Assembly (NCBI RefSeq): GCF_964199755.1 | Contig: NC_133914.1 | Location: forward strand, 62,001-126,000 | Reading direction: 5' to 3' | Length of the DNA: 64,000 nucleotides | From: Larus michahellis | Lineage: Eukaryota; Chordata; Aves; Charadriiformes; Laridae | Shown here: positions 9,701-46,300 of the stretch, piece by piece | Layout of the letters: the number at the start of each line of letters is the position of its first letter | Position numbering within the stretch: position 1 is the stretch's first letter | The notes under the pieces: generated by a model | Told to the model about the DNA's origin: nothing | The model's database searches: none | What the model saw: the letters and a program-made list of their open reading frames with translations, nothing else | Program-made: the position numbers and the translations under genes

Positions 9701-12700
9701 CTAACCGGGTCTGCAAGCCCTCTGTCCCGGCAACTCCAGGCTCACATTAATGCAGAGTCTACCCCGGGATTCACGGGGTCTGGGGCAGGTAACATGCTCC
9801 ACCACCTACCTCAATCAACGGGGAAACAAAACGGGGGAAAAAGAGAATTGAGCTAAAAATGCCAACATCCTCTCAGTTTCTAGAACCACTGTTACTTCAC
9901 CAGCACTGCAGCTCAAGAAGGCCACTGGCAAGCGCAGTCATTGACTAGAAGCAGCAGAGGTAGAGACACAGACCACCTCTTCTGCCTCCCCTCCCACTGC
10001 CACGGCAAGGCATGCCAGAGCTCTCAGGTCAGGATCCCACCGGGAATGCCAAGATCCTTCAGGCATTGATAATGCAGGGGCTGGGACTAGTGTGCGTGAA
10101 AGCACTGTTTGGGAGAGGGCAGGAAGGGAGGGGAAGAAGGATGGATCTTGTACTGGACAGAAAAAGAGTAAAACAGGGTAATATTAAAACAACGGCGTCT
10201 CTGTTAGCTGATTACCTTCCCAGAGAGACTATTTCGCAGCTTACAAATCCCACCGTGAGAGTAAGAACCAAGGGAAAACTCATTAGCCTGTCCTTAAAGC
10301 CTCCCAATCATTTTCGAGCTACACCCCACTGGAGCATCTTCAACAGCTCTTTTTCCTCTTTTGTTATTTGTTGCCTTCAGGGCTGAATTCCAAGAAGAAA
10401 AGCCCTATTCTCTGCAGCTCGTCTCAGGATTTTGTATCACCAGGGGAAGCATGGTTTCAGACCAGGGGATCCACACATTTGACCCAAAACATGTCCCACG
10501 GGGAACTGGCTTATTCCACACCCACTGCAGTCCATGGCTGGAAAACTTCACACATCTTAACAAAAAACAAGAGCTGTCTTTTCAAGAGGTCACCAAACAC
10601 ATACCTTTGCCTAAATGTCACTTTACTAAGCTTTGACACCTGCACCTTCTTTAGAAATGCTAACAGTTTGAGGTCAGCAGACTTCCCAACCACGTTGTAA
10701 ATCTCAAAATGATGCTGTCAGGAAACACGGCATTTTTGTTACCTGCCTCATTAGTAATGCACTTATCTGACAATCTAAGACATCTAAACCTGTGCTTATC
10801 AATGCTGTCCACGGGGCACACAGCCTGGCAACATGTGAGTATGAATATATTTGGGAGCTGTGTTTGTACAACACAGCAAAACCACGCTTCATAGAATGGT
10901 TCGCGTTGGAAGGGACCTTAAAGATCGTCTAGTTCCAACCCCCCTGCCATGGGCTGGGACACCTCCCACCAGACCAGGGTGCCCAAAGTCCCGTCCAGCC
11001 TGACCTCGACCACTTCACTTGCAACCTTTGCGGACCGAGACAAGTCTGATGCAGTGAGGCTTAAGAACTGGTACTAATCTGTATTTCCTATGGAAACAAG
11101 CTGATGCCATACTCCCCACTGCCTTCAGCCGAAATCAGCCAAGCAGACTCAAATCTGGCAGCTTAGCGCAGAAACAACTGAGATCCTACAAGTTTGACGA
11201 GAAAAGGGGAATCAGGTAGAAGACAGGAAACACAAGGCTTGTAACTTACTAGACACCAGATGAAATACATACCAGAAAGCTTTTCTAAAACCCCCCAGCG
11301 TAGGGCAGAGTTTCAGTCAATCAGCCACAAAGCATAAAAACTTTGCTTATTTCCAGCTACAATACAGTTTTAAGATGGGTGGATGGTTTTCTTTTTCTAA
11401 AAGAAGTCAGCCAGACTGTTACCACGCTAACAACACACGTTAATATCAAATTACTACAGCACAGCCTGGCCCCATCCTCTCCGTGAAGACGCTCTCCTGT
11501 TCATGTTTTCCTTACCCTCTGTTTTCCTCCAGTCCTGCAGCAGAGTTTGTATCTTCTCTGCTGGAGAAAAAAAGACCGTTTCCAAACCATTACAGGGGTG
11601 TCCATAGTTTCACTCATGCATGTCTGGGCCAGCAGCCCAATTTTCAACCCCAGAAAATATTAATACTTGACACCTTTCAGCAAGGCAATATAGAGTTGTA
11701 CATGACACTGGCCAAATATTTTTCTTTCACATTACTGATAAACATTTCAAAAGGACAAGGCAAGAAAACCAAAGACTGGAAATGGTGCAACATATGGGTA
11801 GCACCCAAAGGTGCTGGGGATTTGTCCTGCTGACAGGGTAAAGCTGTAGCTGCTACAGAACTGTAGTGGAAACAGTTAGAGCAGAAAAGCCAAAAGCCAT
11901 TTTCTGAGATAGGGAGGTGCTCAGAAGATTCACAATCTATCAAGATGATGGAAAGGCAACTAAATTCAAGCCTAGAAACACTAACACTGCCACGGATATT
12001 GTTGAGAAGGTATCAGAAATAGGAAGAGCACATGTCATGGCATCTTTCTGCTGGGGAAGGAGAAAGTTTTAAAGTCACTACCCTAGCTAGGAACAGCCTG
12101 CGAATGCTTCCCACCTCTCCCTCCCCTTGCAAAAACTGCATAGGATGAACAGAGAAAGAAAGGACTGAACATTGCAAGGTTATTGGAGAAGAAGTCAGCC
12201 TGTGCAACCAGTGCCTGACAACTTACGATGACCAAGACGCACAGACAAGAGCTATTGCCCCAAGCTAAGGCAAGGGTCAGGAAATGAGAGCACTAATTCT
12301 CTGTGCGCAGCATGCTGAGCTGGGAAGTCTTGCATGTACTCCCAGCACCATGGAGACCCTGGAATTGACTCTTCAGCTGTCCCTCAGCTCTATTTTGGGC
12401 CCACAGGTTAAACCCTGCTCTGGTCTTGGCTGAGAGGGAGAAAAAAGGAACCAGAGCCCCCACCACTTCTCCCCAGCCAGGCCAGAGCTGGGCACAGGGG
12501 CCTCCCTTTCAGAGGGCCAGCACTTGAACACTTCGGGACCCATCCCTCCTCATGGGCAGTGCATGGTCTTGGAAAATGAGCGGTTCTGTGGGTGTTTGCT
12601 TCAGTTAAACAAAACTAACTGAGTGCAGAGAGGCTGCACATCCCTCACTGCCTCCTCTGAGTGAAGTGAAACATGAAAAAAACACCTGGAAATATAACAG

Positions 12701-13689: not shown

Positions 13690-13960
13690 TTTTACTGCTG
13701 GACAGGCCGCGGCGGCGGAAGCGGCTTCACCGCCCCCTCGCCACACGGCGCTTCGCCGCCGCAGCCGCCATCTTGGATGAGGGCAGGAGGAAACGGAAGC
13801 GGCGCTGACGTTACCCCGCGCGGTGACGGCCATAGCGGATGAGGGCAGAAGTCAGTGGACGCCATTTTGGGGCCGGGCAGCGGCGGCGGGCAGCGCCATC
13901 TTGCGTGCTGGCAAGGCGCTGCCGGGGGGAGTGCGGCCGCCATGGACGTCCCCCACTGGG
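13690..13960 (-). promoter_or_regulatory. ELOA: ELOA CpG-island promoter with three YY1-like sites
   Basis: The sequence just upstream of the ELOA start is extremely GC- and CpG-rich. GCCATCTTG or GCCATTTTG motifs, the core of the YY1 site, occur at 13767-13775, 13861-13869 and 13895-13903, all in the same orientation. I see no TATA box near the start. TSS position is inferred only. Confidence 0.6.
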
Positions 13961-16900
13961 GCAGTGGTGGCATTTCCGGCCCCACTGTGGTCAGGACAGC
14001 CTTTCCTGAGACAAATGTCTCTTCATAACCCTTCCCGTTGCCTCCCAATGGCCAACGGCTCTACCGTGGCTGTTGCAAGTGGGTGTAAAGCAGGTTTATA
14101 GATTCATTTGTGGCCAAAGGCAAATTGAGTGGGGCCGCAGCTGCCCAGGCCGGGGCTCCTCAGGCTTGGGGGCTCGAAACTGCTGCCCCTTCTGCTCACT
14201 CAGGGTAGTGGGGAAGGCATCAGGAGGGCGATTAACCCCCAGCTCTTCCCCAAATGCCCTCGTGAGCCCCTCTGGAGTAGAGCCAGGCCTTTGGTTGCCT
14301 CCTTGTTGCCTCTCCCTTAACAGTGGCCATGCCCAGCCCTTGGTTTACTGCCTCCTCTTGTCGCTGGCTGTGACGATGTACTTGGCCGGAGCAGTGCTAC
14401 CTGAATCCAGCCCTTTCCATGTCTCTCGGGACTCGGCTGAGGGCGACTGTCCTCACATCACCCCAAAAGCCTGCTGTATATGTAGAAGTGATGAGAGCAG
14501 TCAGCTGGCTGGAAGGGGAGAGGAGGGAGGAGGATGTTGCGTGGAGAAAGTTGAGGGTCTCTGTCTCTCAATCTACAGAGCCCTGTGCTGGTCAGAGCTT
14601 CCCCTTGGACTAACTGGCCTTAACAGCAAGGTAAGGAGCAGACCCAGGCGGTAGATGAGTCATGGAGCACCAGGGCTCACCAAGCAGGATTTGAGGAGAC
14701 CTTGCACGGGGCACGGGAACTGCTGAATAATGGAAATAGCGGCATGGGGAGCGACTTTGTTGTTTTCTAATATGGGGCTGGAGGAATTATTGGCAACAAA
14801 ATAGTGCCCAGAGCTGCAGTGTCCAGGTAGTTTTCCAGGCTAGTTCGATGTTTGCTGTGACTCAGACCCTGCTTGAACTCAGGGCTGGGGGCACCGGTAG
14901 GTGAAGGAGAGGGACTCAGTCTGCTTGGTTAGATATTAAAATAAGCCTGCCATAACTTCCTGAAGACACAGTATTAACCAGTATAGGTCCTGCTTTGCTC
15001 TCGTCTCAGTAATATGGTGCAGGGCTGAGATTAGCAGCACTGAAAGGATGTGAGGACAACTATGGTCTTTTAAGAGAAGTTTAAACAGCTAGAAAAAAGC
15101 CCTGTCTTCCCTCCTTTCTGTCTGGGCCCTTTGAAACCTCTTCAAACCATTCCAGCTCCCTAGATTAATCCAGGAGCCAGGATTAATCTGTAAGAAAAAT
15201 ATCCCTTTCAAGTCTCTACAGTGGTATTTCAGTCACAAGCAGCAACGATGTCCCATTTTAAATTAACTGCAGGTAGTAAAGGTTGCCCTGCTTTCCTGCA
15301 GCCAAACACTGGAATAAAATGAACACGTGCTTCAAATTGGAGTCTGTCAAAGGTGCCCAAAGGGAACAGGCAGGATTCCACAGACATCAATATGAGCCCA
15401 AAACTTCTCGTAACTCCATTGTACTTGTATGAAGTGTAAGGCAGTTAGAAGACCTCTGTTTTACCCCAGGACAATTGTCCCCCTTGACTCCTGAGTGGGG
15501 TGGACGGAGGATGGAGAAAGCCAGCTGCATTGCTGGGCTTTCCAGAAGGACGCAAGAAGGCTTTCAGAGATCAGCTTGCCCAAATGTGATGCTGGGCTCC
15601 ATACCAGGCCCGGAGGAGCTGCTGAGCACTGGTGTCATCTCTCTAAAATGGTATCTGGAGCCCCTGAAAAGGGGTTGGCAGTTTTATGGACAGAAACAGT
15701 GGGTTGCTGCAGACACTGTGCTTGTTTCTGTAAAAAAAAGGACAAAATCAAGGCAATCTAGGGAGCAGAAGGAATCGGGCAGATCCTCAGCACAGCCCAG
15801 TGAGAGCTGACACCCAGGTCACTTATTTCACGAGGCTAAACCTCCTGCCCCAGCAGGTTGCAGACCTCGACCTAGCACCCATCCTGCTGGGACCAGTCTC
15901 AGCTTTGGGGCAGCTGGACGGCCACCTCCTTTCAGGACAGTTCCTGCTCCTTTTTGGGTTTGTTCGGCAGCAAGGAGGTTCTTGCAGCATCATATCTCAA
16001 AGAGATATAGGTCTCATCCCTTGAGGGATCTGGATAGAAGGCCTGGAAAAATGTTTTAATTTCCTGGGAAATTCCAATATTTAACTTATATTGTCACTTC
16101 AAAATCAGCTGAAAAGGCGAAACTGCAAATTTTCCTGGGGAATAGATAGACTGAACAAAATGCATGTTTGGAAACATCACAGTGTTGTTGCTCTGGAAGC
16201 GTATATCCCAGTTCCTTTTCCCAAGCCCGAGCTGGGTATCAGAAAGAGTTTCATATCCAAACACACAGAGAGAAGGGCATTTGCATTCTGATTTCAGAAG
16301 GACTGACACCTGCTCCAGGATATGACACGATGATAGATGGTCCTTCGGTGGTGTACATTGGGGTAGGCCCATGAAATGCCACAGTACCAGGGATGGCTCA
16401 AGTGCCTGGGACTTTTCTCCTGAATCCTCTTGGCTTTTGTGCAAAGCCAAAAGAGAGTAGGGTCTGTGGGTGCCTGTGTTGTCCCTGCTCCCTCAGCTCC
16501 TCCCAGCCAGCTGAGCTCAGCCAGGCCGACACTGTTGCTCTTCCCCTCGGGCTCAGCCCTGAATCCTCTTTCCTGGCAGGGACTTTTACTAAACTTTTCC
16601 CTTCTCCATATTTTTGCTGAAGTCTCATAAAGTCCCCCTTCTTCTTTGCCTGGTGCTAAATACGAGCTGATTACTCAGTTCCAAGAAACCTGATCTTTAT
16701 GGCCAAGCATAATAAACAGTACCCAGATATGTGAGACAGCGCAGTAACAGCTATTTCTGGCTGGCAGATTTGTTCCCTCATATATTGGCTGCTCCGAGCT
16801 CCCTCAGAGGATCTGAGGTCACTGCTGCGTTTCAGACTGGAGTTTCAAGCTGGAATTTGGGAACATTCAAAAGATGGATTGTTGTTGTTGATTTTTTTTT

Positions 16901-17486
16901 TCCTCTTTCACCTGCACTCTGAACTGGTCACCCCAAAGGGCAGCTGATACCACTGGTGACCTTGCCATGCCCAAGGGGCTGAGGGGGAAATGAACACCCT
17001 TTTCTATGTGATCCTGCAGCGCTGGGGTTCATCTCCGTGTGGGATCCTCTGTCAGAGCTGCTGGGATTTGATTCACCCCATCTGACGTGCACTTGAGTCA
17101 GGTGAAACATACCCTGCGATTGCCACCTCACTCCGCCTGGAGTCCGTGTCACCCCAGACACCAGAGCTGAGCACAGCCACACACCCCAGGAACCAGTGGG
17201 TGCTCCCAGTTTCCCAAGGCAAGCACTCAAAATCCCCAGTCCTTTTTTAAAACAGCAAAGTTGCTGGTACTGGTTGAGAGTTGAGGATCCCCTCTCGCAG
17301 TCATAGCCCTCAATGCCTTTAACGGAGCTCAGAGGGATACAGGGCAGTTGCCATCCTTCCCTTGGCCTGACCCAAAGAGTATTTGAGTCAGTGGGAGTTT
17401 TTCCTTTGCTTAACTGAAATGTCTTAAAGAGAAAAAGGGCGCCTGTAGTGCTGCTAGAAGGCTTCTCACCTCTTCTTTCTCACCAG
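13961..17486. other. Intergenic interval between ELOA and the KLHL gene
   Basis: About 3.5 kb lies between two divergently arranged genes. I recognise no conserved coding exon, RNA gene or repeat. It must contain the KLHL promoter and any upstream non-coding exon, since the KLHL coding exon starts with a splice acceptor, but I could not place either. Confidence 0.5.
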
Positions 17487-17508
17487 GTCCCATTCTGATC
17501 CTACCAAG
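17487..17508 (+). other. 5'UTR segment of the first KLHL coding exon
   Basis: A pyrimidine-rich tract ending in CACCAG (AG at 17485-17486) precedes 22 nt of leader and then an ATG in strong context (CCAAGATGG). This implies at least one upstream non-coding exon, as I recall for KLHL31. Confidence 0.65.
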
Positions 17509-20500
17509 ATGGCATCCAAAAAGAAAACCCCCAAGAAGCCCAAGGTGAATAAAGAGGATGCATCCGTCACCGCAGTGATGGTGGAAGATGCTTTGCTAGA
17601 TGTCAAAGCCCTCAATCACTTGAATAGTTTATACGATAGTGGGTCCAACGGCTTGCCCTGCACGGCCACAGAGGTTGAAGCGCCGGACCATGGAGCCAGC
17701 CTTCTGGAGGGGATGAACCAGATGCGCCAGAAGCGGTTCCTCTGTGATCTCATCATTGCCACCAAAACGAAGTCCTTCGAGGTGCATAAACTCGTCCTGG
17801 CTTCCTGCAGTGAGTACTTTCACCACCTGCTGCAGAGAGACCCTCCACTGCACCAAGTGGAGCTCCACAACGTGTCCCCACTGGGCCTGACCACCGTCAT
17901 CACATACGCCTACATGGGGAAGCTGAGCCTCTCGCTGTACACCATTGGCAGCACCATCACTGCGGCCACCCAGCTGCAGGTGCCGGCGCTGCTGAACATG
18001 TGCAGCGACTTCCTCGTTCGGGAGATGGCCGTGGAGAACTGCGTATATATCGCCAACATCTCAGACACCTATGGCCTCAACCAGGTGAAAGACGCCACAT
18101 GGAAATTCATCCGGGAAAATTTCCTGGAGTTCTCCAAGACTGACCAGTTCATGAAACTCCCCTTCGATCAGATCAATGAGCTGCTGATGGATGATGGCCT
18201 GCAGATACCCAGTGAGGTTGCAGCCTTCCAGATTGCTGTCAAGTGGCTGGAGTTTGACCCAAAACGGGTCCGGTATGCTGCTGACCTCCTGAGCAACATT
18301 CGATTCGGCACAATCTCAGCTCCGGACTTGGTCAATCATGTGCAACCTGTGCCACACATGATGCAAGACCCGCAGTGCCACAGGCTCCTTGTGGATGCTA
18401 TGAATTACCACCTGCTCCCCCACCAGCAAAACAGCCTTCAATCTCGGAGAACCAGGATACGGGGAGGCCAGAGGGTGCTTGTCACAGTTGGAGGTCGGCC
18501 AGCTTTGACCGAGAATGCTCTTAGCAGGGAGATCAGCTACAGGGATGCAGAGGGAAACTGGAACAAGCTGACGGAGATGCCGGCGAAAAGTTTTAACCAG
18601 TGTGTGGTGGTGATGGATGGATTCATCTACATTGCAGGTGGTGAAGACCAAAATGATGCCAGGAACCAGGCCAAGCATGCTGTCAGCAGCCTGAACAGGT
18701 AAGACAGGCTCCCCCTGGCCACGCAGACCCTGGGGAGGGGTTCAGAGCTGTGCCGTGTCTGCGTGTGCCCCAGCATCCCCCAGGGGGTGAGGGACAAGCG
18801 CGTCAGAAAGGTTCCTCTTTGCTATCAGTAACCTGGAGGTAGGTCTGGCCTCTGGGATAACGCTGCCAGCGAGGGACAAACGCAGCGAGGCCCTGTACAG
18901 GGTGCTGGAGTGCGAGACACGAGACCTGGAAACCACTTCCAGAGATTTGGTTTGCTTGAGCCCAGCCTGGGCTTCCCCGAGGACTTTGGTGCCTGGGCTG
19001 TGCTGCCCACATCCTACAGCAGCGCACAGCACTGGTGCAGGATGAGGGCAGGGCAAGGCCTCTTTGAAACTGTGAGGCTCCTGGAGAAATGGGAGCCCTC
19101 ATGACTTAGCAGTAACCCATTTTGTTACTCTGGGGAGCTCCCCTTTTAGCCTCTGGCTGTTCCTCCAGCCAGTGCTAGCCTCAACCCTGCCTCTGCTTTG
19201 TCTGGATTCATTTTAAGGTAGATTTACTATCTGTAGGATTACCGTTGCCCTTCAGGTTTTCTTCTCTCTGCCTCCGTTTCTCTCTTCATCATTTAAATTA
19301 TGAGTTTTTTTTCCTTAATCCCCATAAATCTGTCACTGGATCGTCAAGGGATTACTATTCAAAGAAAGGAGTAGTAACCATGGCAACCTGACATGAAGTA
19401 TTTTGTTTGCAAACTAAACCTGAACTTCCCGGTTGCTCTGCCACCTGAGGCTCCACATGCAATGTTGTTGGCACTGCTTGAGGCCAGCCTGTCACAGCCC
19501 CTGATCACCACCCCTCAGTTAGGAGCCGTCATTGGGCTCTGTCTCCTGCGTCAAGTGAGGTTTCAGGGACCCACTGGCAGGTCTCCTTTCTATTTCTGGT
19601 CAATATCTTATCTACCTTTCCCAGCCTGGCCTTAGTCCCTGTGGCATCGCTTTGGGGACACAGCAGTTCCAGTTCCCTTTGCCATCTTGTGGGCACACAA
19701 GGAGCCGGCTTCTTATCACATGCCTGGCTTTGGCCTGGCAGGGTGGTCAGGGAAGACCTGTCCCTAGGTCCTCTTCTACCTGCCAGGTTCCAACGTCTTG
19801 GGACAGTGATGGTGCTTGGGAACACCTCAGATTGGCAGCACTTGCCATTTCCGAGCCAGGCTGGAGCTTGTGGTGGCAGGAGCAATGGTGGGCCATCCCA
19901 AGAGTTAAGAGTGGCAACAACACCAGCAGTCACAGATAGGATCCAGTCCCGTGCAGTGCCATCATCTCCATCTGCGCTGCCTGTCCAGATGCTTTTTTAC
20001 TGCTGGAGAAGACAGAGAGGCTCTTCCAGAGCATGAGTTGTCTCCTCCAAAGGTAGATGTTTGGCAGGCCCCTCTTCTCCCCATGGCTCTGATGCTAGTC
20101 CTGGATAGACAGACCTGCCCTTCATCCCCCAGGTACGACCCACGCTTCAACACCTGGCTGCACCTGGCCAGCATGCAGCACAGGAGGACACACTTCAGCC
20201 TCAGCGCCTGCAACGGGCTACTCTACGCTGTCGGAGGGCAAAATGCCGAGGGCGCATTGGCATCTGTCGAGTGCTACATCCCCACCACCAACAGCTGGCA
20301 GAGCAAGGCAAGCCTGGAGACGCCCCGCTGCTGCCATGCCACCACCATCATCGATGGCAAGCTCCTGGTCACTGGTGGCTACATCAGCCATGCCTATTCC
20401 CGCACCGTGTGCTGCTATGAGCCCAGCACTGACACCTGGAGGGAGCAGGCAAGGCTCGGCACCCCCCGGGGCTGGCACTGCGCGGCCACTGTGGCCAACT

Positions 20501-20865
20501 GAGTGTATGTGCTGGGTGGGAGCCAGCTGGGTCCCCAGGGTGAGCGGGTGGACGTGATGCCTGTGGAGTGCTACAGCCCACTCACAGGGCAGTGGAGTTA
20601 CATGGCACACGTGCCCACAGGGGTCAGCACGGCCGGGGTGGCTCTGCTGGAGGGGCGCTTGTGCCTGGTGGGTGGCTGGAATGAGAGTGGGAAGAGGTAT
20701 CAGAAATGTGTGCAGTGCTACAATCCTGATCTCAACGAGTGGGCCAAGGATGAGAACCTCCCTGAGGCCACTGTGGGTGTCTCGTGCTGCACCACCATCC
20801 TCCCACGCTCCCGGAGCTCCAGGTCCCGGGCCAGCTCTGCGGCCTCGGCAGCAGCCAGCACGTAA
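17509..20865 (+). CDS. KLHL31-like BTB-BACK-kelch protein, with one in-frame stop
   Basis: BTB-BACK-kelch proteins usually serve as CUL3 ubiquitin-ligase substrate adaptors; KLHL31 itself acts in striated muscle. Exon 1 is 17509-18698 and exon 2 is 20133-20865, joined by AG|GTAAGA and CCCCAG. The Lys-rich start [12 protein letters not shown] parallels KLHL31. BTB is at about 69-170 ([14 protein letters not shown]), BACK at about 178-280, and kelch repeats run from about 325 to the end. An in-frame TGA at codon 520 (20500-20502) replaces an Arg in KLHL31 (DRVYVMGG), giving a 519-aa product without the last kelch blades. The same frame continues open and conserved for 120 more codons to TAA; without the TGA the product would be 640 residues (human KLHL31 about 634). 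It may be a recent nonsense allele, an early pseudogene or a sequence error. It looks like a KLHL31 paralogue rather than KLHL31; KLHL43 is a possible name I cannot confirm. Confidence 0.88.
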
Positions 20866-23686
20866 AGAGCCCTGGGTGCCACATGGCTTATGCCAGCAGC
20901 TGGGGAAGGAGACAGAGCTGAGGAGTGTGGGGTAGCTGGATGGGGAGGCACGCTGATGTCTGGAGTCACTGACAAGTCTCAAACGCTCTTGTTCCATCAT
21001 GGCAAGTTTTGGGCTCTAGGAAAGTGTATTCTGCGCTGCGTGCACCTCCATCCCTCAGTTTAAGCAGAGATTGCTCAAAGCGGGGCAAACACTGAAGCAA
21101 GCAGGACAGAAGAGCTTTTCTCCTCAGCCTGCAGTACAGTATTGCACTGTGGACTGCAAAAAATGGAAAAAAAAAAAAAGAAGGAAAAAACCCCAGAATA
21201 ATGTAGGAGAAATTCTACTGTAGGAATAGCATCGTGAGACACTTTCAAAACACAAGTATTGGTATTAGGTACAAGAAACTGACAGGTCTAGAACAGACCC
21301 TGTTGCTCGTGTAGCATTTGTTCAAGGGAAAGGCATTTAATATTTACTCACTGAAGCTAGATACTTTCAGACCAGGAATAATGTGATTCTTGATAGCAAG
21401 GAAGAGAACTATTGGAGCAACTGACCAAGATCTCTTGCTCTCCCTCTAGTTCAAGCAGAAGGAATCAGGGAAGCGCCTAAGGATGCTATGAGTCTCCAGA
21501 TTTCAGAGGCAAATGGTGCCCTGAAAATAAGTATCAGCTGGAACAGAAGCCCTTCACATCCAAACCAAGGAGCTCTCATAGATATATTCCTAGCCAGGTT
21601 CTGTTACTCACACCATCAAGCTGACAGCTTGGTTTTGAACTCAATTCAGTGCTTCCCCATTACTGTAAAAGCAGTGTCTGACCTGTAAAAGGAGAAATGA
21701 TTAGGAAACTTGAGTTTCCAGGGGCAAGCACTTGCTCACTGCCCAGGGTCCCTCCCTGTCACTGCATTTGAGTGAGACAGGAGACAGTTACCAGTCTTTA
21801 TTAAAACCCTGGCTGCCCTTTCAGAGGGCACAGGGACTGCAGACTCCCCCTTAGAGCACTGCAGAGCAGACCCGGGCTTTTGGGCTGAATGCATCAGGAC
21901 AAACCACACCACAAAACTCCAAACCCTGCCCTGGCAGATCCAAGATACAGTGAGGACCTGTGATGAGCAGGAGGCAAGAGAAGGTGGTGGTTATTTCCTC
22001 ATCTCCAGCCCATGGCCATTACCAGACATCACACGATAGTCACAAGCTGAGGCCAGCATCTCCTGGTAACAGATCCTGTTACTGGAGCACATTTACACGT
22101 GATCTTAGATGGGCTCATCACCTGCATCTCAGGCCACGGCAGCTACGAGCTGCCAAGCATCTAAGCAAGCACTCTCGGTTTTCTTCTAGTCTTTTTTGCA
22201 CAACACAGTGAAATTGCACTCAGGAAGACCCTGAGCCCCTCGAGGGAAACCCAACATGCCATGAAGATGCCAAGAGCTTCAGCAAAGCAGGCTGGTTTTC
22301 ACTTCCTTTCACAACTCAGCAAAACTGAGCAGCTTGCAGTAGTTAAGAGTTCACATAAAGGTATTGATTTTTCTCCCAGAATTCACTATCTCAGTTAGGA
22401 GTTCACATCAAGCATAAAGCTATACCAAAGCAGAACATCGTTTCTGTTCAAATTCTACTTTCCTCTGTGCATTTTAGCACACGCAATACATGCTGCCCTG
22501 TGCATTTTGGAGTGGGCTCCATCCTGAACAGCACTGGCAACCTCCCCTGATTTACAATTCCAACCTGCTTGACAAGGGAACGGTGTATGAGACAACACTG
22601 CACAATCACTAATGGAGCATGTACAGATTTGGATGAAAGTGAGTTTGTTCCTTGATTTTTTTATTATATTTTTTTACTGTAAGATGCAGGAGAGGATGGA
22701 ACACTAGAGGCAGAGGTGTTGCTGAACTCCACTTTTGTGAGCCGTGTTCTCCCACAAAGAATTTTCTCTTTTTAACAATAAACACCATTCTTCTGCAGGG
22801 CAAAACTGTCTGGCTGTGTAATTACAACAGGGTAAATTCACACTCCTGAAACCTTTTAAACAAACCAGTCAAGATTCATCCTCTACATTCTAAGCACATC
22901 CAATATAATTGCTTCAGGATTTGCACAGACTTTTAGAGCACCCCACAATCTGTGGCGTAGAAACAACTCTAACAGCTGCAGGTACAGGTTCTCGAGGTCA
23001 CTCACACCACCCAGGGAAGTAGCATGGATCAGGGGTTTCTGCTGGCTCATCTCAGCCCTTGCCTGTGGCACCAGGTTTGAATCTCAGCTCAGGAACCTCA
23101 CCAGTACCCCAGCACCAGACCCTCATCCCCTTCCAACCAGTCCTGTCACACTTGCTTCAACAAAGAACCCTCAGCCACATTTTGGCTTTATGTCTCTGCT
23201 TTATTAAGGGGATATGCTCACCGTTTCCTTTGAACTCACACTTGCACTAGTTCCTAGAGTAAAGGAATTTCTTCTAATTATTCAGAATCCCTCATTCATC
23301 AAAGAGCAGGCTGCCCTTAAGACTGCAGGTTGGTCTGTGGAGGATCAGAACCAGCAGCTGACTGACTTAATTCCCTTCAGGAAATTCTGCTTCACAACTC
23401 CAGTGGCTAAAAAGCATGTATTTTTTTTTCTTCTTTCTATGCCCACCTGCAAACTCTCATAAAACTTCCACACATTATTTGTACACTTGGACAGTACAGA
23501 AGTGGAGACTGGATCCATGTAAATCCACCACCCGCTCCTCAAGAACACCACATTCTCTTCAAGTGCACAACATCAGTCCTTGTCCTTCTGCTGCCTTTCG
23601 AGCGTGACCGACCCTTGTTCCCAGCAGCTTCCCAGGTCAGGAGGAGCCCCCACAAAATTCACAACAGAAGTCAGGGGTTAGAAAAT
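20866..23686. other. KLHL 3' flank and spacer before convergent RPL11
   Basis: This interval presumably starts with the KLHL 3'UTR. Plus-strand candidate poly(A) hexamers are ATTAAA at 21800-21805 and AATAAA at 22777-22782; I cannot choose between them. I see no further coding exon, RNA gene or repeat. Confidence 0.45.
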
Positions 23687-23716
23687 TTTATTTGCTTTTT
23701 TGGTAACAGGAACTGC
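23687..23716 (-). other. RPL11: RPL11 3'UTR with poly(A) signal
   Basis: A minus-strand AATAAA (23687-23692) lies 25-30 nt after the stop codon. This gives the very short 3'UTR typical of ribosomal protein genes. Confidence 0.8.
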
Positions 23717-27182
<3,466 letters not shown>

Positions 27183-27340: not shown

Positions 27341-28741
27341 CCCGTAGGGACGGCGATGCGTGGGGGCCGCCGGCCCTGCTCACCCTTACGCCCTGCCCCG
27401 CAGCCAGGTCCCGGCCTGCACCACCGTGTGCTGCTGCCTCTGCCGCGGGGCCCGCTCCGAACAGCGCTGGGGCAGATGCTGGCGGAGGGGGCTGGGGTCC
27501 TGCCTGGAGCCCTGCCTGCTGCGGAGGCCAGGGGGGATGAACCGCAGTGGTTTTGCTGGGAGACGCTGCACCAGGTGGCGTTGGCGCATCTCCACTGCCA
27601 AGCGGCAATGGGTGTAGCTTACTGGATTTTCTCCTGTCCCTACACCCCCGAGTTCCTTGAACCAGACCTGGAAACATATTTCAATTTCAACTTCACTTAT
27701 TCAGCGAAGTGTTTGTGGGTTTCAGATCTGTGCCTCGGATCTGGATCCTCTTTTTGCATCATTTTGACTTAGTCTGGAGGAAGGGTTCAAGGCCAGGCTG
27801 GACGGGGCATTCAGTAACCTGGTCTAGTGGGAAGTGTCCCTGCCCATGGCAGGGGGTTGGAACTGGATGATCTTTAAGGTCCTTTCCAACCCAAATGATT
27901 CTGTGATTCTATAAAGGGAGGATTCGCAGCCCACGCCCCCGGGAGCAGAGCATAATACAGCTTCTTCAGGAAGGGGGGCAAGCCAAATTCACACCCTTTT
28001 TTGCATCCAAACATCTCCTTCAGTGGCCACGTCCTGAGCTGAATACTTGCGATGAGTCTCTCACTCTGTAAGGATGACACTGGCTTATCCCCTTCCCCGC
28101 CTCCCAGGGACCGTGCTCAGGGCTGCCAGGTTGAACTCTGTAATGCCCTCACTTATTTTTTGCTCCAGTTGCTTCTAAAAGGGGATGAAGGATGAATGAA
28201 CAATCAGCTTGTCTCATTAACAAGAGAAAAAAAGTGTTAGGAGTCCCTGGGCAGAGGGCATGAGAAGCCAGTAGTTAAGAAGTAACATTACGCTACTATT
28301 TCGTTATTGATTTACTTCACCTAAGAACAGCTTTGCTGGAAATAGCCACAGGCTCCTTACAGAGCTCAGCTGACAGCCAGCTTTACCAGGTCTCTGTGGT
28401 TGCCATTTAGGATCTGTCCATGCTGCAGCGTTCCTTCTTGCGGGCAAAGGCTGAAGGCAGGGTTAAATGCACAGCAGGCAATGTGGGTCACTGCCTCCCC
28501 AGGGCAGTAGATTGGGATCAGAAGGTGGACAGAGCAGGGTCAAGGTGACGGGCACTTCAAGAGTCAGAGTGCAGGCAGGGCTGCGTAGCTTGAGCCATCA
28601 CCCGAGGATGCTGCCAGGGCCCCAGGAGCAGGCAGGAACACACGGCTGAGCTTTGCTGCACAGGCAAGGGTAGTACAGGGGGCTCCTGCCCGACCCCATT
28701 TGCAGCCCATTCCCTTGTGTACCTTCCCATGCTCGTGGCTC
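27341..28741. other. Spacer between RPL11 promoter and SLC17 3' end
   Basis: About 1.4 kb starts in the RPL11 CpG island and contains one CR1 fragment (annotated separately). Its right part must include the 3'UTR of the SLC17-like gene; I found no canonical minus-strand AATAAA or ATTAAA here. A GC-rich 147-codon plus-strand frame at 27329-27772 has no protein signature and is not called. Confidence 0.5.
27783..27914 (+). mobile_element. CR1 LINE 3'-end fragment
   Basis: The sequence runs through the CR1 3' consensus: a ttcaaggccaggctggac block, ggcagggggttggaactg, gatgatctttaaggtcc, and a terminal attctgtgattct. It is about 130 bp and 5'-truncated. It sits between RPL11 and the SLC17-like gene. 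Divergence from consensus appears modest by eye. Confidence 0.92.
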
Positions 28742-31700
28742 TCATTGCACAGCAGTGTCCTCTGTAGCCCAGTCTTGGATGGTCCCGCTGCCAAAGGCTA
28801 GGTAGAAGATCAGCCCAAACAGGTTGAGGGCTGCAGATACAAAGAAGGCATTCCTCCAGCCAGTCTGGGGATCCTGGGGGACCAAGAACAGATCACAATG
28901 GTATCACCCTTCCTTTTATCTCCATGTAGTGATTGCCCAACTACTGCCACCCCGTTCACTGGCATTAAACTCATCTCCATCCTCTGCTTGCTACTAATAC
29001 CAACAACAGAAGAGCTTTGCTCAACTCAAGGCATATGCCAGACTGCCTCTTGTTGGAGATGTATTTCCTGCCTTGGCATTTTTGGAAACACTGTGTACTG
29101 TGCCGAATTCAGGAAGCTTTCCTGCCTGGCACAGAGCTTCCCCCTCACCCCACTCCCTCAACCCTCTCCCCATCTCTAAGTACATCCAGATGGGGGCCAT
29201 GTGGAGCTCTTCCTGCTTTCTGAGTCATCCCCGTGTCCTCAAAATGGGCTGGAGCTCTGTTTGAATGGGTGCTACATCACATGTGCTCGTTGGGAGAGAA
29301 GGTTGGCCTGGAGTAATTTTTTGATTCAGTGCAAAGAAAGGAATCCATTTCTGAGAGGAGATCTGTGTTTTCTTCCAGGGATGTGCTTGTGGTTTCTGGC
29401 CCCAAAGTACCTGGCCAACGAGAAGTCCAACTGCAGAAGGAGCAATAATTCCTGCAGCTATGCCAAAGGCATTTGTGATTCCCAGCAGGAACCCTGCATA
29501 TCTGGGGAGAGGAAGCAAAGATTTCCTGAGTGAGGCAGAGAGGAAACTGTCACAAGAAGGGAAAGGAGTAGGTGCTGCCAGTCCCTTTCCTCATCTGCAT
29601 GAATACCGCCTGTCGTGGTAAGCAACACTAGGATTTTCCCTGCAGGACTGTGGGGATTTTAAGCTTTTATTTTACTCCTTAGCTTGTACTGCCACCAGCT
29701 ACAGAAGGGAAGGGAAGGGAGAGTAGGAGTTGCAGAAGTCTTGGGGGACTGGGAACAGGAAGGATGCAGAGCCAGGGAGGGCACAGAGGTCAGACCCACT
29801 TACCTGGGGGCTATATCGATGTGGTTAATATTGATGCCTGCCCCTGTCATGCTGATTACTGTCAAGGCCAGTGTTAGAAGGACCACAACAACCGTGGAAC
29901 AGCAGCCAATGTACGGCACAGCCACCAGGAAGATGGCTGGGAGCAGCATCCCTTGGGATGAAAAGGGGATGTGTTTTACCACAGGCCACACAAGCGTGTT
30001 GGAAAGGCTGGATGGCAGATGAAAGCTTGTCCTTACCAAGTGCTGAGAAGAGCTTCCTGACGGCTGCTGTGCCAAGCACTCGCCTGGCCAGGAGGAAATC
30101 AGCCAGCAGCCCAGCCAGGATGTGCCCCAGCCCATTCCCAACATAAGGCAAGGAGGAGAGAAGCCCATTCTGCAGAGCAGAGAACGAGACATTGTCATGT
30201 CCATGGCACAAAGCAACAGTGCCAAGAGCTCCAAGACTGTGGCTGCCTTGGTCCCAGAGCCACCACCCTTCAGGAAGAGATATCGCTGGGGATCCTCCAT
30301 GTTCCCAGCCTACAGAGGGACCAAATCCCATCGCTGTTGCAGGGACCAGCCTTAGCTGGAGGGCAGCACTCACCTCTCTGAGGTCAAAGTGGAGGATGTT
30401 GCTCAAGAACGTGGGCATGGAGGTCAGCAGCAAGTAGAACATCCAGTCTGTGCAGAAGCAGGCAACGGTGATTGCCCAAAGAGGCAGTGATTTAGCCATG
30501 GCCACAAGTGGGAGGGAGCAGCCATGAGAGCTGCCCTGGAAGGAATAAAACATCAGTTAGTGACACTGTTCCTGTCTCCCATCCCCTGGGCAGAGTGTCC
30601 AGGCTTTCCTCGGCCTCTCCATCTGCTGCTGCAAAGACTGGGACTAGCCCTGGCCACTGCATAAGGAGCCCAGCTGAACTGCCTCAGAGCAATCCCTTTG
30701 CTATGGTGTCTGCAGTGTGCTCAGTTGCGGGTAAAAGGTTTGTGTGTACCTGGTGAGCCAGAGATGACATGATGTACTCCTGCTCCCTGGCACTAATCCA
30801 TGGGTGATGTGCAGGGTCCTCGTACACGAGGAGGAACCAGCAGAAGCACCAGGCACAGCCAACGCCACCTGCAAGGAGTGGGGATCTCAGTGCCAGCTCC
30901 TCTTACTGCAGCAGAGCTGAGAGCCTGTGAGATGGAGGCTGGTGCTAGCAAAATGATGAATGCAGGAAGATGGAAAGGGAGAACTCCCCTTAACCCGTTG
31001 CTCACAGTGGAAGGGGCTAGGTTGATGGCATGAAAGGTTCAGCAAAGGCACATTCCCTAATAGTATCCCAGCAAAATGGCTTCATCCTGGCCTGGCAGGT
31101 GAGAGGGAAGCCCAGAGCTCTGTGTGGGACCAGTAAGGACAGAGCTAGTCCCGCGGGGCTCTGATGGGGAGCCTCTGGGAGCTCTGCCAGCAAATGGTCT
31201 GCAGAGAGACATGATGGGCTATTACTCACCAAAGATATAGAAGACAAAAGGCCACCCCAGACTCTGGCAGATGATCCCAGCCAGGAAGAGAGCAAAGAAA
31301 GTCCCAAAAGTGCATCCTAGGGATCAGAAACCATAAGAGTCATTTTAATGGGACTTTGGTACCCAAGTACCTTTGTGTGACCAGCAGCGAGTGGGACAGA
31401 CCTACAGCCTCCAGCCTGGTTCACAATGGGAAAATGTGGTGGTGCAAATGAAGCGCCTGTGCAAACAAGCACTTTTGTATCCACGTTTGCTCCCTTCGGT
31501 GTCTGGATTCCCTCTTCTGCCTCAGGCTGACCTGAGCCAAGGAGACAGAGAAGACACAGGATGGGAGGAGGAGAGGCGGAAAAGCTGAATGCTGCTAGCA
31601 CTTCTTTGCCGAGGACCCACAGCCTTGAACTTGAGGCTGCTATGAGGACTGGCTTGGACAGAAGGGGGTGAGGGGAGGTCCTGCACTTACTGAGTCAGTG

Positions 31701-32977
31701 ATAGGTAAAAGGCCCCGTGTCTTACCAGCATCAGCGATGTTCACGAGCCTGCTGCGTTCCAGCGGAGGGGCCCACTTTGCCCAGAGTGTGTACTGAGCTG
31801 GAAATATCACTCCCTGCAATGATAACAGGGAGCGTGGAGGGAAGGAACATGGGGAGCACAACCATGGCCGACCAGAGCAAGTTCAGTAGCCTGGCAGTGC
31901 CTGGAGCCACAACTGACCTCAGCCAAGCCCAGCAGCACCTGCAGCCCAATGAGGAAGCTCAAGCCGAGCTCTGCTGCTGGTGGCACGAGGAGGGTGAGCA
32001 CGGAGGAGAGCAGGAGCCCACTGCCCAGGATGGGTTTTCCCCCAAACAGCCCTGAGCAGTACCCGCCCAGCACCTGCGTGAGGCCGTAGCCATAGAAGAA
32101 GGAGCTGAGGACGATTCCTTGAGTCTCAGCACTCCAGTTGTACACAGGGGCCTGGAGGAGACAGAACATGTCTATCAGACAGAGATCTCTCTTTTCCAGG
32201 CACAGACTCCTCCAGAAGGGGAGAAGCAACCAGGAAACACAGCCCAGAGGACAACAAACCAAGCTGGCTGCTCCTTCACCTCCTGGTCCTCAAGGCTTTT
32301 CTCTGCTGCTTCCGGCTCTGTCCTTATGCAAAAGCAAGAGCAGACTGAGCCCGGGAAGCATCTTTCAGTTATCTGCATCTGCTTTCCACTTACATCCTGA
32401 GCAAATCCTGGGTAGGAGCCATGGGGAGCGCTGCCGGACCAGCCGTGGGGGTGGCTGCTGTTGGTCATGGCGACGATGGTGATGCTGAGGCTGACCCGCA
32501 GTGCGTACGCCACAAAGAGAGAGACATGCAGGGCTAGGGCCAGGCCAGAGCGAGCGGAGCAGAGCCCTGCGGAGGGGGAGAGCCCACAAATCAGGGCTGG
32601 TTGGAGAGGCCGTGGGTTAGCTCTCACCCCCTCCTACAGATCCCTGTTGCCAGGCGATCACCTTACTGCAGCAACGAATGGCTCTTCCCAGGTACCCTCC
32701 AGACATCTACTGCTCCTTTGCAGCGGTGGCAGTTTGTGTCTCCAGAAGGAGAATGGAGGGGCAGGAAGGCAAGGAGACTTGCCCAAGGGTGGAGGGGACA
32801 TATAGAAGCCTGAAGCGTCTGGCTCCCAGTCTGTGCTGAGGCAGCACTTCAGCTCGCTCCTCCCCAGGGAGCGGATTTACCTGTGCGAGAGGAGAGATGC
32901 TGGGCAAGCAGAGGGGCTTCATCCTGCTTTGCCTCCGGCCTGTCCCCTGCCTGCGTGTTGTCCACGTGGCACTGCAT
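28742..32977 (-). CDS. SLC17-family anion transporter, sialin-like
   Basis: SLC17 proteins are 12-helix MFS carriers of organic anions (sialin, VGLUTs, NPTs). Exons (minus strand): 32881-32977, 32394-32566, 31918-32151, 31726-31813, 31230-31316, 30750-30868, 30374-30535, 30037-30169, 29804-29951, 29411-29501, 28742-28873. They total 1464 nt, 487 aa (human SLC17A5 about 495), with consistent phases. Family signatures: YALRVSLS in TM1, [30 protein letters not shown] after TM4, [12 protein letters not shown], and [17 protein letters not shown]. The N-terminus has an acidic dileucine motif (DEAPLLAQ) like the lysosomal sorting signal of sialin (DRTPLLPG). The start at 32977 leaves about 40 residues before TM1, as in sialin; an in-frame ATG at 33097 is an alternative. 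Oddity: the TM4 Arg of sialin and VGLUTs is Gln161. As I recall, avian SLC17A5 lies elsewhere, so this is probably a paralogue; substrate unknown. Confidence 0.92.
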
Positions 32978-40313: not shown

Positions 40314-43300
40314 TTAACCAGCAATTTCTGTCACAGTGGTAACCAACTTCTGACCGTTCCACACTGTCTTGAACTGTTCTGGGACAGGGAATTCAGTCTG
40401 GAGGGCAAAAATAGAAATTTGTTGTCAAAAAACAGTTTATGACTGAGACCAGTAACTACTCCCACCGCTTTAGGCATTTCTTTTCTTAGATACACGCTAT
40501 GCCCCCTCCTGTATCACAAACAGTGCCTGTTCTGCTCCTGAAGAAGAAATTCTCACAAAACAGCAAGTGTCTTACTGTAGAGACAAACAACTTGATCTGC
40601 TGGTTTTAGCAGCTGATCATCATTCACAACCTCCAAGTCTAGAGTCTAGAATTGTCCTTCCAGCCCTCACTGTAACTGTGACATCCCCTGCAGGGCTCAA
40701 AATACGAAACCTGCCGTGCATTACCCCGACCCCAGGTAGACCACAGTGACTTCAAAACTTGACACTTACAAAGTCACCACCCTCTGTGGGAATAAGGACA
40801 TTCATCTCTGATGACTTGGCACTGACGATTTCACAGTCTAGGGAGTTCTTGCTCAGATACACGTGGCAACCGTCTGTCTTGTTGATGGAAATCGTTGGCA
40901 CTTTACCCATTACCTAGCAGGGTGGTCAAAGCAGCAGTTAAGAGGAGCATTAGCTTGAACTGGGCAATCACAACATTTTTCTTCTGCGTTTGCATTCAAG
41001 GCAAGAGGTGTGACTCCAGCCCCCATGCTGGATTCAAGTACTCCCACCTTTGGCAAAAATCCAACGTTATTTCTTGTTTTGATCTCTTTAGAACAAAACT
41101 ACAGTGAATGCTGGGCAAATTGACCATCCCAAATCAGATACCAAACTGGAATTGGAGTAGATTCTACTGCTGGCCTCCTCACAGAAACTAATTTTTTATC
41201 TAGAGCCCTGAAGCTGATCTTCAGTGAGGCAAATTTCAGCCCTTTCCCAAGGGCTGGGCAGAGCAGTAGGACAGATGGCGTTTCAGGAGTGTTCTCCACA
41301 GGTGCACATTCCTGTTCTGGAAATACAGAACTCAAAGAAGCAGATACTACAGACACCCTGTTGTACAGTGCAGCAGTCACACTCCAGACAGAGAACAGGT
41401 CGCAGACACTCACCTGAACTTTAACGTCCCTGCTGTTTATGATCTCTACGATGCCCACCACGTCATCGAACACCAGCCCTAGCTTCTTACAGTTATCTGC
41501 AAAGAAAAGACAGAGTAGCTCACAGAAAGGTTTTGGAGATTCAGCCTTCTGCAAACAGACCAGCGTGCAGAAGCAGTTTTCAGGGTTTCTCCACTTACCG
41601 AGGGTGATGGAATTGATCTTGCCTTTGATTTGGAGCGTACTATTTGTGCACTTGAAAACATATGCTACCTGCTTCAACTCTGTGTCACTGATTACCAGGT
41701 TACTGGCATTCTCCTGGTTTTCCTGAAAAGGCAGGGAAAACACACTTTATTTTTGGAATGCAGACCAATTAATCCATGTGAACAGCAGGGTAGTGCTGTC
41801 CCTCTAAAAGCAAACTGCTTTCTTACAAGAAAGGTCTTCAGGAGACCCTCCTTCCCTGCTGCGAAGCTCCCATCCCTCCAACCCACTCATGCCGACGCTA
41901 GGCACTCACCACTCTCCACTTTTTGCCCTCTAATTCTAGCAACGCAGGTGCCTTTGGAGAGGTTTTTGGGGAGGGATTATTAGCATTACAGGATGGTTTG
42001 GGAGCAGTGAAAGGTTTGGGTCCACTTCTCACAGGACCCCCTTGGTTCTTCAATGCTGGATTCTTGTGGGTCTTCATGTCATCTGAAACATGTCTTAAGC
42101 CTGCAAGAGAAGTCAAACCTGAGCTCCAGCTCCAAGAATGCAGCTTCACAAACACCAGGTATCAGTGATCACAGCAATCATCATGGTAACATTTTTCAAA
42201 ATACAAATAAATTATTGCAACTGGGCCTAAGTTAAGCCCAAGCACAAGTGACAGCAAGTGAAAGAGAGAGCAAGGAACGGTTGACACAATATTGACAAGA
42301 ACACAAGATGTACTGCAGAACCAGAAGGTGCCAGCTCTTCCACTCTGCAGCTGGAAAAAGCCCCAAGCTAAGCACCTCACTTTTGTTTCACATGTGTCTT
42401 GATACACTCACCAAGTAACACACAAAAGGGATATCACAGAATGGTAGGGGTTGGAATGGACCTCTGGAGATCATCCCGTCCAACCCCCTGCCAGAGCAGG
42501 GTCACCCAGAGCAGGTGGCACAGGAACGCGTCCAGGCGGGGTTGGGATGTCTCCAGAGACGGAGACTCCACCACCTCTCTGGGCAGCCTGTGCCAGGGCT
42601 CTGCCACCCTCAAAGCAAAGAAGTTCCTTCTCATGTTTAGGTGGAACTTCCTATGTTCAAGTTTGTGCCCATTGCCTCTTGTCCTGTTGCCGGGCACCAT
42701 TGAAAAGAGCCTGGCCCCATCCTCCTGATACCCACCCTTTAAGTATTTATAAGCGTTGATAAGGTCCCCCCTCAGTCATCTTTCTTCCAGACTGAAGAGA
42801 CCCAAATCCCTCGGCCTTTCTTCCTAAGAGAGCTGTTCCAGTCCCTCATCATCTTGGTAGGCCTTTGTTGTCCCCTCTCCAGCAGTTCCCTGTCCTTCTT
42901 GAACCGGAGAGCCCAGCAATGGACACAGCACTCCAGATATGGCCTCCCCAGGGCAGAGCAGAGGGGGAGGATGACCTCCCTCCACCTGCTGGCCACGCTC
43001 TTCTTGATGCACCCCAGGATGCCATTGGCCTTTTTGGCCACAAGGGCACATTGCTGGCTCATGGTCATCCCATTGTCCACCAGGACTCCCAGCTCTCTCT
43101 CCACAGAGCTGCTCTCCAGCAGGTCACCCCCAACCTGTCCTGGTGCATGGGGTTATTCCTCCCCAGGGGCAGCACCCTGCACTTGCCCTTGTTGAATTTC
43201 ATAAGGTTCCTCTCTGCCCAACTCTCCAACCTGTCCAGGTCTCTCTGTATGGTGGCACAGCCTTCTGCTGCGTCAGCCACCTGCCTCAGCTTTGTGTCAT

Positions 43301-46300
43301 GAGCAAACTTGCTAAGGGTGCACTGCATCCCTTCATCCAGGTCACTGATGAATATATTGAAGAGGACTGGACCCAGTACCGACCCCTGGGGAACACCACT
43401 CGTCACTGACCTCCAACTGGACTCTGTGCTCTGTCACGACCCTCTGAGCTCTGTCTTTCAACCAGTTTTCAATCCACCCCGCTGTCCATTCATCTAACCC
43501 ACACTTTCTAAGCTTCCTTAAGAGGATGCTGTGGGAGACTGTGTCAAATGCCTTGCTGAAGTCAAGGTAGACAACATTCACTGCCCTCCCCTCATCTATC
43601 CATCCAGTCATTCCATCATAGAAGGCCATCAGATTAGTCAGACATGATTTCCCCTTGGTGAATCCATGTTGAGTACTTCTGATAGCTTTCTTTTCCTCCA
43701 CATGCCTTGAGATGACGCCCAGAAGGAGCTGTTTCATCATCTTTCCAGGGATGGAGGTGAGGCTGATGTGAATAGGTGCAAAATTGCACCTCGTGTACGT
43801 GAGACACACAGGCAACCAAAAGGCTCCCTCTCTCTCTTCCAGCTAGAGATTAATTTCTTGCTACACCTGACAGATGAGGCTGAGAATTCTAGCTCGGATG
43901 TGCTCCCTTTGTCCCTGTGAACTGCCTCAGGGCTGCTTCGGGCTCCCAGCCTCATCCTCAGGCCTTTTGTTACTGCAAGCACACTTTCTAAGCAGGTGTA
44001 TCGAGGGACGGCAGCAAAACAAGGATTTGCAGCACAACAGCACTCCCGCTCGCGGCTGCCCCCTGCTTCACTACCTATTTCCACGTACCGGAGGTGATGC
44101 CTTCTCCCCGATTGATCTGGGCGAAGAGCGCGGAGCGGGAGGCAGAGTCATCTGTACTGGAGCTTGTAGGGGCAGGAGCAGGTGGGGGAGGAGGGCCTGG
44201 TGGGGGAGGTGCAGCCCCGGCTTGGGGAGCGGATGGTGATTTAGACCCTTCTGTTGCTACAGGACCCTGTAAGAGGCCAGCAAGAGGAAAGGCAATTGCA
44301 CAAGCTCCATATCTGCTGCAATAATCATGCAACGGTCATCTAAGAAGCTTCTGCAGATGTAGCCAGCACTCACCGTTTTGCTCCAAGTCAGCCCTGTGGT
44401 GTGATACTCTTTGATATAGGCCTGCAGCTCTGTCCAGATACTCAGATAAGCTTTCACCCAGTCCACGTGCTTTTTATCTCTGAGGACACAAGGAGATCAT
44501 GAGGAGTGAGCAGGTGCATTTGCCATTAAAACGCAAGAACTACAAACAGTTCTTTACATCTCTCCACCTCTCAGCCTACAAGCAAGATGCAGCTGGACCA
44601 GCACAGTGGCCTCGCACCTCCAGCACCACATTCTAGCTTCAGCATTAATCTGGCACCTGCAGGCAGAAGGGCACAGGCCTGCTCTGCGCTGTTACCCATT
44701 TTAATTGAGGAGCCTGGTACTTCCAACAAGACCCATTCCCGAGACACAACTTGCTGCCCTGGCACACAGTTCAGCCACCAGATGATGCTGAGACAAGAGC
44801 AGCAATACACTTGCTACCAGGGATTCCAGCTGCAACATGAATGCAAGGAATCCAGTCCCTAAAGATCAGGAAAGAACAGCTAAGTGAAGCTTTATAACTA
44901 CACCCTGCCTTTAAAAGGAAGACTGAATTAAAGACCAAGGCGACCGTGGTTAGATACTGGAACAGTCCCTACACACCCTGTTTGCTGCATTCAATGACAC
45001 CTTTACGAGATAAGGTGAACTTACACATCCTTGTACTCCTTGAGGATCCGGTTGGTATAAAACATGGCAGCATCAGTCATTTCCTTCACGTATGGAGCAG
45101 GCTTTGGAGCCTAAAGAAGAAAGAACACATTGGCGTGGAGCAGTTGACCAGGGAACCAGACTTTTCCCAGCAGCCCACAGAAACCACTTCCCACCGGAGT
45201 TCTTACCATGGCCACCCAGCCCAGGGCTGGGATGCTCTCGCTGACTGCTGATAGGTGATTGAAGAGTTTGCTACCACGGTTCTTCTCCCTGAAATTCTGC
45301 ACCACCTGGATTTGCTCTGAAATCGGTTTCAGAAGTGATGAAAATGCATTCTGTGGGACAAGAGGGATGATAACAGTTAAGAACATTAGTACTGCTCTGG
45401 AATGGCTGCACATCTTCACGGGCAGCTCTGCTGAGATGATCGTCACTCAGAGGAAGACTCCAACTGGCACAAGTGACTGCTACAGCTCCCGTCCAGGCTT
45501 GGCCCTCCCTGCAAGCCGAGCTCAGTCCCACAGCCTGGCTCCTCCGGGGCTGAAGTCATAGCTCCCAACTGGATTGGTACTATGGGAGTACGCCAAGAAC
45601 TGTGACTCATGTTCAATCCAAGAGACACTGACAAAGCTTGTTAGTAACGAGGACAGAAATAGCATTTGCCTTTCCTGGATTCTTTTGCTCCAAGACAGTT
45701 TGTCAAATTTTTTCTGTCCTTTATAAACTCTCAGAGAAAGGGGGTGCTAAGCAGGTTTTTGCAGTTTGGGATCTACAGCCTGCGTTACAAGTGGAATCGC
45801 AGCAAGTTCTCAACTCACCCTACCAAGCTGAACTTCAGAATTCAAGTTACTTCTCAAGTCAATCCAAGCCTTTAATATTTGAATGATAAAAATTGTTTCT
45901 GTGTATTGTTCACTTGGAATGGTGACTGAAAGTGCTTAGAAGCCTTCTGAGGTCAAAGCAAAGCAGCCAATAAACAGTTCCAGAGGTGCCTCTTCGGCAA
46001 CTTTTCTTTCCTCTAAAATCAGAAATTCTCCTGCTGGTGGCAGCAGTGAGAGACAAATTTGGGCAAAGCTTGCTTTTCAAAGCCTCTGCATTTCTATCCC
46101 TTCTTCTAAATGAAAACAGAGAGGTTCCAAGGACCAACAGCCAGGCTACGCTTCCAGAAGCTCCAGCCTAGTGCCACTGTCAAGTAACAGGATGTGGAAA
46201 TTCTTCACCACATGCAATTAGAGTTCATACATTTTGCATTTTCAACTGTCTTCTCCAGAACTGACTAGACTCCTGCAAGAAAACCTGCACAAAGACCTGC

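Follow-up and report, generated by a model that had tools for sequence, protein, structure and literature searches.

A probable recent nonsense mutation in an old duplicate of KLHL31 in Larus michahellis

The KLHL-type gene and its neighbours

The window analysed here is a stretch of 64,000 nucleotides from Larus michahellis (contig NC_133914.1; G000:C23:62001-126000), to which all positions refer. On its plus strand lies a KLHL-type gene whose two coding exons, when spliced, yield 641 codons, the last of which is TAA. Coding exon A (17509..18698) begins with the ATG at 17509 and encodes an N-terminal tail, a BTB domain (residues 69-171; Pfam E=3.6e-21), a BACK domain (residues 178-279; E=3.6e-25) and the start of the kelch domain. 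It is followed by a GT-AG intron (18699..20132) and by coding exon B, the first part of which (20133..20499) carries the kelch domain up to the end of repeat 4 (Pfam Kelch_1, E=5.4e-30 on 20134-20499). An in-frame TGA follows at 20500..20502, then 120 open codons (20503..20862) that encode kelch repeats 5 and 6 and a Ser-rich tail, and finally the TAA at 20863..20865, presumably the original stop codon. BTB, BACK and Kelch_1 all score above the Pfam cut-offs when the TGA is entered as X. The splice sites (GTAAGA donor, CCCCCAG acceptor), the start codon and the final stop codon look normal.

Upstream of the start codon, a pyrimidine-rich tract (17465-17486) ends in CAG, 22 bases 5' of the ATG; tract and CAG suggest that another exon, a non-coding one, lies farther 5'. 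When 13900-17508 was scanned for promoter motifs, 11 E-boxes were found and no match to MEF2, CArG or TATA motifs.

The neighbouring genes in the window are those for Elongin-A (minus strand), RPL11, a transporter of the major facilitator superfamily (MFS), PPT1 and CAP1. The transporter, whose exons lie on the minus strand at 28800-32633 between RPL11 and PPT1, has an MFS_1 score exactly at the Pfam cut-off, and we take it to resemble SLC17; we know of no MFS transporter gene between RPL11 and PPT1 in humans. Retroelement pieces, presumably CR1-like, are found at 10845-11073, 27770-27920 and 42400-43842, and one of them matches a reverse transcriptase (E=1.3e-11).

The stop codon and the open frame behind it

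An earlier note on this DNA had reported the TGA as codon 520 of an otherwise intact kelch domain and the frame behind it as open and still kelch for 120 codons. Both observations are confirmed by the spliced two-exon translation and by the profile searches. Six GG doublets of the repeat type occur, at residues 328, 377, 431, 478, 525 and 577, and an extra GG at residue 319 does not belong to a repeat. The TGA lies five residues ahead of the GG of repeat 5 and thus at the border of repeats 4 and 5, such that the encoded product retains only four of the six kelch repeats.

Of 20,000 Markov sequences matched in make-up, 4.8% stayed open over this length, and 0.3% of 20,000 did so when the composition of the 3' flank was used. 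In DNA this rich in GC, an open frame alone says little. The post-stop stretch taken alone, however, matches Pfam Kelch_1 with E=1.1e-10, and it is therefore old coding sequence, beyond what chance would provide. An open frame arising by chance after the TGA was rejected on the basis of this match.

The residue lost at codon 520 had been given as the arginine of KLHL31. Arginine indeed occupies this column in two of the four other KLHL proteins of the same genome that were aligned, namely the paralog on contig C3 (described below) and one further protein; the remaining two do not cover the column. The best match among solved structures, KLHL22 (E=1.7e-84), has lysine there, and KLHL31 is absent among the best 60 of 199 such matches. 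The C3 paralog uses AGG for its arginine and other one-step routes to TGA exist, which leaves CGA as a candidate for the ancestral codon.

A second gene of the KLHL31 type

The gene had been taken for KLHL31 itself, an assignment that has to be corrected. In a search of the 616 contigs of the 1.4 Gb assembly, the table of kelch profile matches contained one set, on contig C3, with a spacing equal to that of the window gene. This locus (L009) holds an intact gene of 634 residues with an intron at the same position. When the protein of exon A was used as query (105 of 190 candidates scored, 104 matches listed, 616 contigs), C23 itself matched with 100% identity, C3 with 68% and the next match by score with 35%; none of the other matches listed exceeded 36%, and a match of 100% was found once among the candidates scored. 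The KLHL31 subfamily therefore comprises two genes in this genome, within the reach of a search for which exon A served as the protein query. Collections of viral contigs, genome contigs and phages contained no relative of exon A.

The window gene is closer to the C3 gene than to the other KLHL genes listed and shares its intron, which assigns it to the KLHL31 subfamily. As the orthologue of KLHL31, however, the C3 gene is the closer match: its identity to the human KLHL31 protein amounts to 85.3% (541/634), versus 67.6% (428/633) for the window gene. The C3 gene was named KLHL31 because of this identity and because chicken KLHL31 is located on chromosome 3. Against this name, motifs of GCLC and LRRC1, the usual neighbours of KLHL31, were not found in the six stretches of C3 flank that were scanned, so that these neighbours do not confirm the C3 locus.

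The neighbourhood of the C3 gene bears on the origin of the pair. About 19-29 kb upstream of KLHL31, C3 contains a multi-exon Elongin-A-like gene on the minus strand (L012:1151-3589 and L015:2850-8502), recognised by its matches to the Elongin-A exons of the window, which follow the same order on both C3 fragments. The matches comprise 57% identity over 42 residues (7e-13), 73% over 22 (9e-6), 70% over 56 (8.1e-23), 60% over 48 (1.4e-17), 58% over 62 (2.5e-22), 67% over 30 (4.7e-11) and 58% over 26 (2.9e-6). In a control, the same queries were run on eight further kelch loci, each about 3 kb long, and gave 16 matches, all of which came from the repeat at 10.85-11.07 kb. The first exon of both Elongin-A-type genes carries the Med26/TFIIS bundle of Pfam; the central reading frame of the C3 gene had no Pfam match. 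The arrangement of Elongin-A on the minus strand followed by a KLHL31-type gene on the plus strand thus occurs twice, in the window and on C3. Because the two KLHL31-type genes are each preceded by an Elongin-A-type gene of like orientation, the window gene can be regarded as an old duplicate that arose from a duplicated block. For the Elongin-A/KLHL31 pair a large block duplication would be the source, and the window gene is probably a 2R ohnolog. An origin as a retrocopy was rejected, as the intron has been kept and the Elongin-A neighbour is paralogous. Judged by these comparisons of sequence and gene order, the window gene is an old KLHL31 duplicate and not KLHL31 itself; we assume that this duplicate was lost in mammals.

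Constraint before and after the stop codon

Apart from the TGA no lesion is visible in the gene, in line with the earlier note: there is one stop in 641 codons, no frameshift, and the splice sites are normal. An alignment with the C3 paralog is free of frameshifts; its gaps are three short in-frame ones, confined to the N-terminal tail. Identity to the paralog is 68.0% in BTB/BACK and 72.2% in the kelch part ahead of the stop; behind the stop it is 72.2% for residues 521-617 and 65.0% for all 120 residues, the lower value being due to the looser C-terminal tail. Values of dN relative to C3 are 0.206 before the stop and 0.201 after it (residues 521-617), with a 95% interval of the difference of -0.098 to 0.098, so wide that millions of years of neutral drift behind the stop could escape notice; over all 120 post-stop residues dN is 0.265. 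dS between the two genes is saturated or nearly so. Three KLHL proteins from the same genome served as outgroups in relative-rate tests; only one of them, L018, covers the stop column, with arginine. The unique changes in the window gene and the C3 gene numbered 28:31, 21:13 and 15:16 (chi-square 0.15, 1.88 and 0.03), and none of the three tests was significant. According to the best reading of these data, the window gene would have been under normal constraint until the stop arose.

The lack of any further lesion can be converted into an upper bound on the age of the stop. At the rates assumed (kappa 4, a CpG factor of 1, 6 or 10, an indel ratio of 0.05-0.15 and 2e-9 substitutions per site per year), neutral divergence amounts to no more than 1.0-2.4% (95% bound), or about 5-12 million years, provided that the entire gene was freed from selection. 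The bound widens to 5-12%, or 27-60 million years (CpG factor 6), when release is assumed for the 120 post-stop codons alone. The proposal that the change is recent holds within these limits. An old pseudogene was rejected, given the single stop, the lack of a frameshift and the lack of significant acceleration in all three relative-rate tests.

The looser bound concerns an alternative in which the stop codon is part of a functional gene. The regular product of this lineage would then be a BTB-BACK protein of 519 residues that has four kelch repeats and serves, for example, as a dominant-negative partner of KLHL31 through its BTB domain. In favour of such a product, both BTB and BACK are complete, the stop coincides with the border of repeats 4 and 5, and its position in the last coding exon may spare the mRNA from nonsense-mediated decay (NMD). 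Yet residues 521-617 are no more diverged than the repeats ahead of the stop, which is unexpected after a long time without selection. As the bound for the post-stop part still permits divergence of 5-12%, there is room for a truncation that is functional and young, but on balance we consider a functional truncation improbable. Its most specific form, in which the stop is a young change of function and the duplicate pairs with KLHL31 and CUL3, binds no substrate and tunes KLHL31 in muscle, is a speculation to which we give very little credence.

Possible recoding of the UGA

The constrained appearance of the post-stop part would also be accounted for if a full-length protein were still made, with the UGA read as selenocysteine, passed by leaky termination or altered by A-to-I editing. 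A weak inverted arm of 20 nt (75%) that begins 22 bases downstream of the TGA, and whose partner lies in exon A, could be cited in favour of such recoding. The C3 paralog, however, has a plain arginine codon at this position, and none of the three matches obtained in 20400-23800 with E up to 5 was a SECIS element, by which a selenoprotein gene would be recognised; no Rfam family reached its gathering score in the window. The context of the stop is UGA GUG and thus differs from UGA CUA, the consensus given for readthrough by leaky termination (PMC4359377). RNA folding around the stop is ordinary (z=-0.58, with 59 of 200 shuffled sequences folding as well), and of the 15 inverted repeat pairs in 17400-24000 the longest (36 nt at 72%) is at least 640 bases away from the stop. 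Readthrough, which the earlier note had listed among the possibilities, thus gains no support from the missing SECIS element, the missing UGA CUA context or the unremarkable fold. Selenocysteine, a leaky context and an editing hairpin were each rejected on these grounds, with the weakness of the inverted arms as a further reason, and recoding as a whole appears very unlikely.

A probable recent nonsense mutation

The TGA could also be an assembly or base-calling error, in which case a sense codon and an intact gene would be present in the individual. Such an error predicts the undamaged remainder and the normal evolutionary pace equally well. The lesion, however, is a single clean substitution and not a homopolymer indel, and the assembly has contigs of up to 132 Mb. 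At the error rates of modern assemblies, a false stop of the substitution type is expected less often in a given gene than a genuine nonsense allele that segregates. An error is thus unlikely, albeit less so than the alternatives discussed above.

Based on these observations, we consider it probable that the TGA is real and arose recently, by a nonsense mutation in an old duplicate of KLHL31, with the allele either segregating in the species or newly fixed. The ancestral codon would have been one for arginine; the simplest route to TGA starts from CGA at a CpG. A stop codon in the last coding exon usually avoids exon-junction NMD, and because the TGA is so located the mRNA probably escapes this decay. 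The resulting product, 519 residues long, would comprise BTB, BACK and only four of the six kelch repeats; it would be either made or degraded. The kelch propeller is a closed ring, so that an incomplete propeller would be expected not to bind substrate; an AlphaFold model of exon B, calculated with the TGA read as W, was too poor to use (mean pLDDT 35.1). The intact KLHL31 on C3 presumably covers the main role and would buffer the loss of the window gene. The window gene is thus most likely a null allele or has only just become a pseudogene, an event of an ordinary kind.

The initial interpretation thus stands with regard to the TGA, the intact remainder, the arginine in relatives and, within the limits given, the recency of the change, but not with regard to the identity of the gene as KLHL31 or to readthrough; an ancestral CGA and an unfolded propeller, also proposed there, are conjectures. 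If the allele is real, a duplicate has been caught at the first step of its loss while its intact partner is present in the same genome, and the cost of losing a second KLHL31 would be measurable in natural populations. That the genome has kept two KLHL31 genes, both preceded by an Elongin-A-type gene, may be of use in placing the klhl43 gene of fish and in clarifying the history of the family.

Comparison with known systems

KLHL31 is the closest known relative. The window gene has the same domain order and the same coding intron position as the intact C3 gene, is 65-72% identical to it over residues 61-640 and shares with it a C-terminal SRASS motif. It differs in its location on another chromosome, in its length of 640 codons (TGA counted) versus 634, and in the TGA. 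Expression in skeletal muscle and heart and a link to myogenesis, in embryos of chicken and zebrafish among others, have been reported for KLHL31 (PMC4067060). A tree of the KLHL family unites KLHL31 and KLHL22 in one clade (PMC10146909). Among the titles listed in the literature search none concerned a KLHL31 duplicate, and the search found no paper on a klhl31-like gene or an avian kelch-like pseudogene.

A second comparison is offered by klhl43, a heart-expressed KLHL gene of ray-finned fish. According to a study on the carp group, it probably originated within the ray-finned fish once their lineage had separated from that of tetrapods, and its transcripts are present from the heart-beating stages on, together with those of klhl31 (PMC10179623). 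As a mere lead, it could be that klhl43 and the window gene are the same old duplicate. With regard to its lesion, the window gene resembles unitary pseudogenes and segregating nonsense alleles, which likewise display one stop in a frame that is otherwise intact while a paralog is present.
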